Assembly: GCF_900070205.1 (NCBI RefSeq) | Contig: NZ_FAOO01000016.1 | Location: forward strand, 1-43,650 | Length of the DNA: 43,650 nt | Reading direction: 5' to 3' | From: Candidatus Thermokryptus mobilis | GTDB taxonomy: Bacteria; Bacteroidota; Ignavibacteria; Kryptoniales; Kryptoniaceae | Shown here: piece by piece, positions 14,784-17,662 of the stretch | Numbering within the stretch: the stretch's first letter is position 1 | Layout: every line of letters begins with the position of its first letter | Translations under genes and position numbers: made by a program | The notes under the pieces: generated by a model | What the model was told of the DNA's origin: nothing | What the model saw: only the letters and a program-made list of their open reading frames with translations | The model's database searches: none

Positions 14784-14984
14784 TTATTTTTTCTTTTTCT
14801 TCTTCGGTAAACCTTTCTGCGCTATCTCAAGCAACTTGTCGCGATATTTTTTAGCAACCCTTTTACCTTTGATTATTTGCGAAACATACGACTCGGTGAC
14901 GCCGAGCGCCTCAGCAAGGTCTTTCTGTTTTATCCCCTTCTTCAAGAGCATCACCTTGATGTCCGTCGGTGTTAATTTCTTCAT
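14784..14984 (-). CDS. XRE-type HTH protein with polylysine tail
   Basis: This 66-aa protein starts at ATG 14984, preceded by CAGGAG at 6 nt; the TTG two codons upstream falls inside that spacer. The HTH reads KQKDLAEALGVTESYVSQII, followed by KGKRVAKKYRDKLLEIA. The protein ends KGLPKKKKKK, a strongly basic tail that could add nonspecific DNA binding or nucleoid association. It is first in the operon with the ATP-grasp gene, recN and cysS, behind the promoter at 15024-15052, so it may be autoregulatory. It is not closely similar to the XRE protein at 10391. Confidence 0.8.
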   Translation of the reverse strand: MKKLTPTDIKVMLLKKGIKQKDLAEALGVTESYVSQIIKGKRVAKKYRDKLLEIAQKGLPKKKKKK

Positions 14985-15023
14985 GACCAACTCCTGATTT
15001 TAAGTTTATATGTTTTCAAGTAT

Positions 15024-15135: not shown

Positions 15136-15164
15136 TTGACTTTTAAGACCCCCACAAGTTAAAT
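15136..15164 (+). promoter_or_regulatory. Promoter of the bd-like oxidase genes
   Basis: Plus strand: TTGACT (15136-15141), 17-base spacer, TTAAAT (15159-15164). It is followed by AGGAG and ATG 15201, giving a leader of about 30 bases. The -35 is five of six and the -10 is weaker. It diverges from the promoter at 15024-15052. Confidence 0.45.
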
Positions 15165-15200
15165 TATTTGCGAATTAAAACAAAGTTCAGGAGAACATCT

Positions 15201-16496
15201 ATGAACTACCCTGTCTGGGACATCCCACTAATTGGAGGAGGACTTTTAATCGGATTTGTTGCAATCATCCACGTTTTCATCTCACACTTTGCCGTTGGAG
15301 GCGGAATCTACCTTGCATTAACTGAAAGAAAAGCTATTAAGGAAAACAACAAAGCGTTGCTTGATTTCTTGAAAAAACATTCAAGATTCTTTCTACTTTT
15401 AACGGTTGTCCTGGGGGCAGTTTCAGGCGTTGGCATTTGGTTCACGATTGGACTTGTTCATCCAAGCGCGACATCTACCTTAATCCATAGCTATGTCTTC
15501 GGCTGGGCGATTGAATGGGTCTTCTTCATCGTTGAAATTTCAGCTATCTTAATTTATTATGCAACATGGGACAAACTTGACCCGAAAACTCATAACATAA
15601 TCGGATGGATTTATTTTGCCGGGGCATATTTGAGCTTGGTGATTATCAACGGTATCTTAACATTTATGTTGACAACCGGAAGCTGGACCGAAATTCCGTT
15701 CACAGAGCCGTCAAAGAAATTCTGGCTTGGCTTTTTCAACCCGTCCTATTTCCCGTCTCTTTTCATAAGAACTGGCGTTGCATTAGCTCTTGCAGGTCTT
15801 TACTCCCTGATAACAGCAACCAGATTAAAGGATGAAGACCTAAGAGCCGAACTCGTTCAATATTCTGGTAAATGGCTTGTCCCAGCGTTTATTTTAATAC
15901 CTGTCGCTGGCATTTGGTATATTTCAATAATCCCACCGCTTGCACGTGAAATCTCAATGGGCGGAGCTCCCGCTGTAACGGTATTTGCTGCTTTAAGCGT
16001 TGTTTTTTCCCTCATAATCGCATTGTTTGCATGGCTTGGTCCAATTAAAACACCAAGGCAAACTTCTTTTGCTTTTGCCCTCGGTCTTCTCGTAATTGGA
16101 TTCATGGTTACGGCTGTAACTGAATGGGTCAGGGAAGCAGTGAGAAAACCTTATATCATTTACGAGTATATGTACTCAAACTCAATTTTAAAAGAATCAG
16201 CAGATAAAATTAACTCACTTGGGACTTTAAATGTTGCAAAATGGGTGAGCGTTAAAGAAATCAACGATGAAAACAAGCTCAAAGCTGGTGAAGAAATCTT
16301 TAAGGTTCAATGTCAAAGTTGTCACACAATTGATGGTTATAATGGGATAAAGAAACTCGTCAACGGTTGGAGCGAGACATACATTGATTTTCAACTCCAA
16401 CATCTTGATATGCTCAAAGGTTTTATGCCTCCGTTTTACGGCACCGAACAGGAAAGGAAAGCCCTTGCAAAGTGGCTTTATAATTTGAATAAGTAA
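15201..16496 (+). CDS. CydA-like membrane protein with C-terminal cytochrome c domain
   Basis: I start at ATG 15201 (AGGAG, 7 nt), giving 431 aa; the longer TTG frame from 15168 lacks a site. Helix 1 IIHVFISHFAVGGGIYLAL puts His24 on the CydA heme ligand His19. AIEWVFFIVE (Glu105, Glu112) matches CydA Glu99 and Glu107, and VTEWVREAVRKPY (Glu308) matches the Glu445 and GRQPW region. Arg190 stands where CydA has His186. There is no space for the quinol-binding Q-loop. After about eight helices comes a soluble domain with CQSCH (371-375) and GFMPP (Met409), a single-heme cytochrome c, presumably periplasmic. It pairs with the next gene, 20 bases downstream. I infer a divergent bd-type oxidase or related redox complex fed by or feeding cytochrome c. 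Confidence 0.72.
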   Translation: MNYPVWDIPLIGGGLLIGFVAIIHVFISHFAVGGGIYLALTERKAIKENNKALLDFLKKHSRFFLLLTVVLGAVSGVGIWFTIGLVHPSATSTLIHSYVFGWAIEWVFFIVEISAILIYYATWDKLDPKTHNIIGWIYFAGAYLSLVIINGILTFMLTTGSWTEIPFTEPSKKFWLGFFNPSYFPSLFIRTGVALALAGLYSLITATRLKDEDLRAELVQYSGKWLVPAFILIPVAGIWYISIIPPLAREISMGGAPAVTVFAALSVVFSLIIALFAWLGPIKTPRQTSFAFALGLLVIGFMVTAVTEWVREAVRKPYIIYEYMYSNSILKESADKINSLGTLNVAKWVSVKEINDENKLKAGEEIFKVQCQSCHTIDGYNGIKKLVNGWSETYIDFQLQHLDMLKGFMPPFYGTEQERKALAKWLYNLNK

Positions 16497-16516
16497 AACA
16501 AAAAAGGTTTAAAAAA

Positions 16517-17632
16517 ATGAACGAGCAAATCATTTTACCTGAACCTGATCCGATCCCATTGCCAGCACCATACTGGCTTTTGAAATTCTTGCTTGTCTTA
16601 ACATTTATATTACACATAATCGCTATGAACTTCGCCCTTGGTGGTGGATTTATAGCCGGAATCACAGACCTCATCGGTAGAAAAAAGAGCAACCAATTTT
16701 ATACAAATCTTTCAGCTTCGCTCTCAAAGATGTTACCAATTGCAACTGCGTTTACGATAACCCTTGGAATAGCACCGCTACTGTTCGTGCAGGTTTTGTA
16801 TGGTCAATACTTCTACACCTCCTCAATCATTATGGCTTGGCCTTGGCTTTCTGTCATATTGCTTTTGATAATTGGATACTACGGATATTACATCTACCAG
16901 TTTAACTTTGAAAAATTGTCAGGTATAAGAGCTTGGATCGTTCTCGGAAGCGCTGTTCTTTTCGCCGTGATCGGTCTAATCTATACGAACAATCTCGTCT
17001 TGATGCTCACCCCTGAAAAGTGGGCTCAAAAGTATTTCACTAATCCACACGGGACAAACTTAAACTTTGATGACCCAACTGTCATTCCGAGATATTTGCA
17101 CTTCTTCGTTGCTTCAATCTCCGTTGCTGGTCTGCTTGTGTTAATCTATGGACTCGGCAAGATAAACAAAGATGAGAAATATGGTAGATGGGCTATAAAA
17201 TATGGTGGTTTGTGGTTCGTCATCGGAACCATCGTTCAATACGCGGTTGGGATATGGTTCTTGTTAAGTTTGAAAAAAGAATTTTTGCTTCTTTTCATGG
17301 GTGAAAATTCGCTCGCAACAATCATCTTCGGAGTATCCGTCTTGCTATCGCTTTTAAGCTTGATTTTAATACTTCTCTCCTTCAACGCACTAAATCCAAA
17401 ACCTCTCGCTATCGGTGGAATCGTCTCGCTCTTCCTTACTATTGCTGGGATGTCAATCATGCGGGATATTTTAAGAAATGCTTACCTTCAAAACTACTTC
17501 AAACCTGAACAATTTGATGTTCAAATACAAATTTCAGTTTTACTTGTCTTTGCTGTGGTGTTCGTGGCTGGATTGATCACCGTTGGATATATGCTAAGCA
17601 AGGTGTTAAAGTTAAAGCCAACAACCGCATAA
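16517..17632 (+). CDS. Second CydA-like membrane subunit
   Basis: This 371-aa polytopic protein has about nine membrane segments. Its first helix FILHIIAMNFALGGGFIAG repeats the pattern of the partner protein, with His33 at the CydA His19 position. PRYLHFFVASISVAGLLV places His195 at the CydA His186 position, which the partner lacks. The acidic pair of CydA helix 3 is absent (MAWPWLSVILLLIIGYYG). It does not look like a standard CydB. The two genes therefore appear to be divergent CydA relatives that work together, with heme-ligand residues shared out between them. AAGG lies about 10 bases before ATG. The gene ends 8 bases before the hairpin at 17641-17662. The function as an oxidase subunit is inferred. 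Confidence 0.62.
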   Translation: MNEQIILPEPDPIPLPAPYWLLKFLLVLTFILHIIAMNFALGGGFIAGITDLIGRKKSNQFYTNLSASLSKMLPIATAFTITLGIAPLLFVQVLYGQYFYTSSIIMAWPWLSVILLLIIGYYGYYIYQFNFEKLSGIRAWIVLGSAVLFAVIGLIYTNNLVLMLTPEKWAQKYFTNPHGTNLNFDDPTVIPRYLHFFVASISVAGLLVLIYGLGKINKDEKYGRWAIKYGGLWFVIGTIVQYAVGIWFLLSLKKEFLLLFMGENSLATIIFGVSVLLSLLSLILILLSFNALNPKPLAIGGIVSLFLTIAGMSIMRDILRNAYLQNYFKPEQFDVQIQISVLLVFAVVFVAGLITVGYMLSKVLKLKPTTA

Positions 17633-17640
17633 AATTTTAT

Positions 17641-17662
17641 GGGGCGGTCATTTGACCGCCCC
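17641..17662. terminator. Bidirectional terminator hairpin
   Basis: Perfect 10-base arms GGGGCGGTCA and TGACCGCCCC are separated by TT. The hairpin sits between the converging plus-strand oxidase unit and the minus-strand operon ending at 17672. A T-rich run follows on the plus side and ATAAAATTTTAT on the minus side, so it can stop both. Confidence 0.85.

Follow-up and report, generated by a model that had tools for sequence, protein, structure and literature searches.

A CydA-like protein with a fused cytochrome c domain and its CydA-like partner in Candidatus Thermokryptus mobilis: a probable cytochrome c-fed relative of cytochrome bd

Described relatives in the cytochrome bd superfamily

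The canonical cytochromes bd, e.g., those of E. coli (CydAB), Geobacillus and Mycobacterium, share with protein A of the locus described here the CydA fold (Z 30–33) and the residues numbered H19, E99, E107, E445 and R448 in E. coli CydA. However, three features of these quinol-oxidising enzymes are absent from the locus, i.e., the Q-loop, the H186 ligand in the CydA subunit and the CydB partner; protein A carries a fused heme c domain, and its partner, protein B, is CydA-like. The archaeal CydAA′ of Caldivirga, which is a heterodimer of two CydA paralogues like the proposed A–B pair, was reportedly shown to oxidise quinol, whereas the A–B pair lacks the quinol site and bears heme c as a fused domain.

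The OR-C families described by Murali, Gennis and Hemp in 2021 are said to bear heme c and to have CydA paralogues in place of CydB. To our knowledge, no OR-C-type enzyme has ever been purified, and the kind is apparently uncharacterised. OR-C resembles the A–B pair in having the CydA active-site helices without the quinol site, cytochrome c as the proposed donor, and CydA paralogues with no CydB; no difference was found in this comparison of descriptions. According to two papers, Murali et al. 2021 divided the superfamily into three families, only one of which has the quinol site; for the other two, cytochrome c or a different donor is suggested (PMC8509429, PMC10839748).

The bd-like oxidases of Nitrospira and Nitrospina (OR-N) have been treated in several studies (PMC3578206, PMC10839748, PMC12342949). 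They also lack the quinol-binding residues, have two associated CydA-type subunits and have cytochrome c as the suggested donor. However, the Nitrospina protein has 14 helices, with three extra ones at the place of the Q-loop, and a fused heme c is unmentioned in its description (PMC3578206), in contrast to eight helices in protein A, nine in protein B, and a fused heme c in A. An OR-N identity was rejected by this helix count.

The locus and its genome

The A–B pair was found in a window of 43,650 nucleotides (contig NZ_FAOO01000016.1) from a hot-spring bacterium with a 2.42 Mb genome that is 97.5% complete. Both open reading frames of a preliminary description of this window are present at the positions given in Table 1, and form a two-gene unit on the same strand with 20 bases between them. 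The flanking genes have the opposite orientation and no obvious respiratory role. One of them, a small Cro/C1-type HTH gene (Pfam HTH_3; 14784–14990, minus strand), is divergent from the operon; it was rejected as a regulator of the pair because it was not found in the loci of relatives. A chance or frame artefact was also rejected, since the pair is kept across phyla with its genes adjacent or overlapping by 4 bases.

Table 1. Features of the A–B locus, with positions in the window
Feature	Position	Strand	Basis
Sigma-70-like promoter candidate, TTGACT-18-TAAATT	15136..15165	+	Consensus scan, 9/12 matches; regional near-chance level, weak
Gene A (P0001, 431 aa): CydA-like, with a cytochrome c domain at the C-terminus	15201..16496	+	ATG to stop; ORF, translation, Pfam, AlphaFold2
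Membrane core of A, residues 7–329, eight helices matching CydA	15219..16187	+	Model and fold comparison
H24 of A = E. coli CydA H19 (active-site heme ligand)	15270..15272	+	Profile alignment; invariant 109/109
E105 to E112 of A = E. coli E99 and E107	15513..15536	+	Profile alignment; 109/109 each
R190 of A, where canonical CydA has H186 (heme b558 ligand)	15768..15770	+	Profile alignment; Arg 109/109
Short helix 6–7 loop of A at the Q-loop place, ~13 residues	15930..15968	+	Helix limits of the model; residue spacing
E312 and R315 of A = E. coli E445 and R448 (high-spin heme site)	16134..16145	+	Motif, phmmer; invariant 109/109
Cytochrome c6-like domain of A, residues 358–431; CQSCH 371–375, distal Met409 (GFMPP)	16272..16493	+	Pfam, fold
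Gene B (P0002, 371 aa): diverged paralogue of CydA with nine helices and without heme c	16517..17632	+	ATG to stop; ORF, AlphaFold2, profile match to A
H33 of B = E. coli CydA H19	16613..16615	+	Profile alignment; invariant 96/96
H195 of B = E. coli CydA H186	17099..17101	+	Profile alignment; His in 81/94 readable rows
Terminator-like hairpin, 9 pairs (8 G-C), 9 bases past gene B	17641..17662	+	Far strongest among three hairpins found

The preliminary description had noted that no CydB-like gene lies beside the pair. A PF02322 search extended this absence to the whole genome, and the same search did match in control genomes. The genome encodes four bc-type cytochrome b proteins and two homologues of cytochrome c oxidase subunit I, which makes the existence of a cytochrome c pool able to feed the A–B pair very likely. 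For Kryptonia, respiration of both O2 and iron(III) has been predicted (PMC4737851).

Protein A retains the CydA fold and active-site residues

The assignment of protein A to the CydA family was borne out by both Pfam and fold. Residues 17–198 match Cyt_bd_oxida_I (PF01654) above the cut-off with an E-value of 2.8e-13, and an AlphaFold2 model built from 51 sequences (pLDDT 89, pTM 0.86) has a membrane core that superimposes on E. coli bd-II CydA (7ose_A) with a VIA-align Z of 33.1 and an rmsd of 2.7 over 319 residues. NrfD-type subunits matched the model of protein A in general fold with a Z of 19, far under the values for CydA (30–33), and neither A nor B has an NrfD Pfam match.

All of the active-site residues of protein A listed in Table 1 are invariant among 109 homologues, and so are E308 and R311. 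The local-mode hhalign alignment of protein A with CydA is reliable only through helix 5, and the equivalence of E312 and R315 is therefore based on phmmer and on the motif pairing of REAVRKPY (A) with AEYGRQPW (E. coli CydA). The positions of H186 and E445 are 122 residues apart in protein A (121–133 in homologues), compared to 259 in E. coli CydA, in agreement with the earlier claim that there is no space for a Q-loop. Thus, protein A retains the CydA active site, but has lost the quinol site as well as the ligand of the low-spin heme b558.

A single-heme cytochrome c domain at the end of protein A, with a Met of GFMPP as the candidate distal ligand, had been recognised before. It was identified here as Cytochrome_CBB3 (PF13442, E-value 1.9e-9, residues 359–426), and in the model it matches the cytochrome c6 fold with a Z of 7.7 (71 residues). 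The CxxCH motif is found in 109 of 109 homologues and the distal Met in 107, the remaining two being gapped at that column. The loops before the last helix contain 14 Lys/Arg on the inner side versus 3 on the outer side. This positive-inside distribution, together with the eight helices of the model, predicts that the heme c domain is on the periplasmic side, as the preliminary description had proposed from about eight helices.

Protein B is a diverged CydA paralogue

The second protein had also been called CydA-like. By an ordinary family search this did not hold, as protein B has no Pfam match at all; by profile and by fold it did, since hhalign aligns protein B with the A profile at a probability of 99% (E-value 1.2e-18), and its AlphaFold2 model (pLDDT 94, pTM 0.90) matches CydA (5doq_A) with a Z of 29.4. 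Neither of the outcomes that had been named as counting against the CydA assignment, i.e., an unrelated family by profile or a fold unlike CydA, appeared for either protein. B was rejected as a CydB, because the PF02322 match is absent and Foldseek prefers the CydA chain (5doq_A, E-value 2e-5) to the CydB chain (5doq_B, 5e-3). Protein B is thus a diverged CydA paralogue rather than a CydB.

The acidic active-site residues are missing from protein B, which has two histidines at the positions of E. coli H19 and H186 (Table 1). The second of these is replaced by Met in 11, Lys in one and Phe in one of the 94 readable rows, which makes the presence of heme in B uncertain. Met and Lys are also able to ligate heme, and a heme b at the place of H195 is therefore plausible. 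In the order-level relatives (L010–L018) the residue at this position is Met (PRWLMMFG), or Phe in L012; the Met possibly represents a His-to-Met ligand change.

Distribution and co-inheritance

The nearest named relatives, with 88–89% identity in protein A, are Candidatus Kryptonia / Kryptonium thompsonii, and orthologues with 84–90% identity were found in four of the six further genomes of the genus. Among the matches listed, carriers span at least 12 bacterial phyla and include Ignavibacteria, Acidobacteriota, Armatimonadota, Calditrichota, Omnitrophota, Latescibacterota, Eisenbacteria, Methylomirabilota, Chloroflexota, Symbiobacteria, Poribacteria, Neomarinimicrobiota, Verrucomicrobia and Thermodesulfobacteriota. 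The contig scan covers 80 of the 557 stretches that encode a relative of A, so that its counts do not represent frequencies.

Gene B adjoins gene A in nearly all loci long enough to cover both, frequently with a 4-base overlap. The pairwise distances of A and B are correlated with a coefficient of 0.92, compared to a maximum of 0.17 in 2000 permutations, showing that A and B are co-inherited. Among the loci examined, no neighbour gene is conserved across phyla, and the neighbours are lineage-specific. In a tree calculated by a quick method, with long branches flagged and only the grouping used, A (including its heme-less relatives), B and canonical CydA separate cleanly. The 600-aa CydA-like proteins of Bacteroidota (L123–L130), which served as stand-ins for OR-C and OR-N in this tree, split off on long branches and therefore carry no weight for the placement.

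Proposed function and alternative readings

The best reading of the class is that the A–B pair is of the quinol-site-less OR-C kind of Murali et al. 2021, an assignment made by description; the OR-C features found are the missing quinol site and the fused CxxCH domain in all 109 homologues. This kind was proposed in 2021 from phylogenomics and is widespread.

The preliminary description had proposed cytochrome c, in place of quinol, as the electron partner of the complex, and the fold, the lost quinol site, the fused heme c, the missing CydB and the predicted periplasmic position of the heme c domain support this proposal. We consider it likely that A and B form a CydA–CydA′ heterodimer of the cytochrome bd superfamily which acts as a cytochrome c:oxygen oxidoreductase. 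In subunit A, the usual active site would hold a pair of high-spin hemes, with H24 and E312 as ligands and E105, E112 and R315 around them, and the periplasmic heme c would be the point of electron entry, replacing both the quinol site and the low-spin heme b558. The bc complexes of the host would reduce the donor, a cytochrome c that is either soluble or bound to the membrane. The steps beyond heme c, which we infer, would lead to the active site of A, where O2 would be reduced to water, with a heme b between H33 and H195 of subunit B as a possible relay. Apart from the uncertain heme in B, three points count against the oxidase reading. Geobacteraceae and Desulfobulbaceae, which carry the pair, are usually regarded as anaerobes, so that in such carriers the enzyme possibly removes O2 rather than respires it, or uses another acceptor; an octaheme neighbour in Geobacteraceae is left unexplained by O2 reduction alone; and other cytochrome c oxidases are already encoded in the genome.

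The main rival is a reverse flow of electrons, which we consider unlikely and which ranks first among the alternatives because the c-arm is multiheme in metal- and sulfur-cycling anaerobes. Here, B or the A–B interface would oxidise menaquinol and the c-hemes would pass the electrons to periplasmic or extracellular acceptors, making the pair a quinol:cytochrome c oxidoreductase or a membrane electron conduit. The fused arm of A contains one to eight CxxCH motifs across homologues, and its growth to three or four hemes in Geobacteraceae and Desulforhopalus and to eight in Desulfobulbaceae would suit such a conduit. The eight-CxxCH form, with the gene order B-A, is common in the Desulfobulbaceae genomes searched. 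It was found at six loci (L076, 10001–12637; L088, L095, L097, L098 and L110) and combines one c6-like heme with an arm of seven hemes that has MtrC/F-like and c7-like matches. In about 25 further Desulfobulbaceae genomes the A protein is of similar length (~880 aa), which suggests that these are also eight-heme proteins, the heme number having been counted in the L-loci. In six Geobacteraceae loci, moreover, an octaheme cytochrome of the tetrathionate reductase family starts about 80 bases downstream of the pair (e.g., L096, 7536–9125; 524 bits in the one locus scanned). The prediction of iron(III) respiration for Kryptonia (PMC4737851) and the occurrence of the same fold, at the lower level given above, in the NrfD-type subunits of alternative complex III also favour the reverse direction. 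However, the residues of the O2-reducing site are all invariant in A, which a plain conduit would not need, the recognisable quinol-binding loop is gone, and single-heme forms are the most widespread type among the matches listed. These observations argue against the reverse flow.

Two further alternatives were considered. Reactions with NO and peroxide are established for canonical bd oxidases, and a detoxifying reductase, which would be fed by cytochrome c and reduce NO or peroxide instead of O2, would fit the occurrence of the pair in anaerobes and in genomes having other oxidases. A protein next to one of the octaheme forms, with a weak match to the NnrU family, points the same way, although NCBIfam calls it a methyltransferase. 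This reading is quite improbable, as the conserved site belongs to an O2 reductase family and no neighbour kept across phyla hints at nitrogen oxides. It is highly improbable that the pair is a structural or regulatory remnant without catalysis, because all ligands, the CxxCH and the distal Met are kept in P0001 and the 109 homologues. Decay does occur in a related CydA-like group (L119, 378–2892; L120–L122) that has lost both H24 and CxxCH; a cytochrome b/b6 gene is adjacent, as read in L119, and the protein may serve as a subunit without heme in a bc-type complex.

Lone forms, wider implications and minor variants

A lone c-fused CydA-like gene was found in 13 genomes (G391–G403) of the GTDB family of Desulfogranum (L182, 3636–4952, minus strand; L181 and L183–L187), and a search of these 13 genomes found neither B nor CydB. 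The lone proteins read retain H24, E105, E312, R315, the CxxCH and the Met; E112 is lost, and a His lies near the place of R190. For cable bacteria, nothing of a bd oxidase beyond CydA homologues has been reported, and the complete enzyme is said to be missing (PMC10030654), a description which a c-fused CydA without B or CydB fits, and the 13 genomes may thus be those of cable bacteria. How these organisms reduce oxygen without a complete bd oxidase is the clearest question that the present locus touches (PMC10030654). A broader and rather unlikely extension is that the c-fused CydA/CydA′ is a general terminal electron-disposal module for cytochrome c and multiheme networks, as in metal reducers and cable bacteria, and that the lone c-fused CydA is the long-missing O2 reductase of cable bacteria, taking electrons from the conductive filament.

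A relative fed by cytochrome c would change the view of energy conservation by bd enzymes and the interpretation of genomes that have 'cydA without cydB'. The comparison supplies residues for testing, i.e., R190 in place of H186, E312, the heme c, and H33 and H195 of the B subunit, and some of the hosts allow an ordinary knock-out.

Two minor variants of the gene pair were also observed. A three-gene form, A-A-B, is present at L029, L031 and L034 (Ignavibacteria, Bacteroidota), where the second A is placed elsewhere in the A tree. Some B proteins have a C-terminal CxxCH of their own, with one motif at L118 (60–1424, minus strand) and two at L188 (2271–3881, minus strand).
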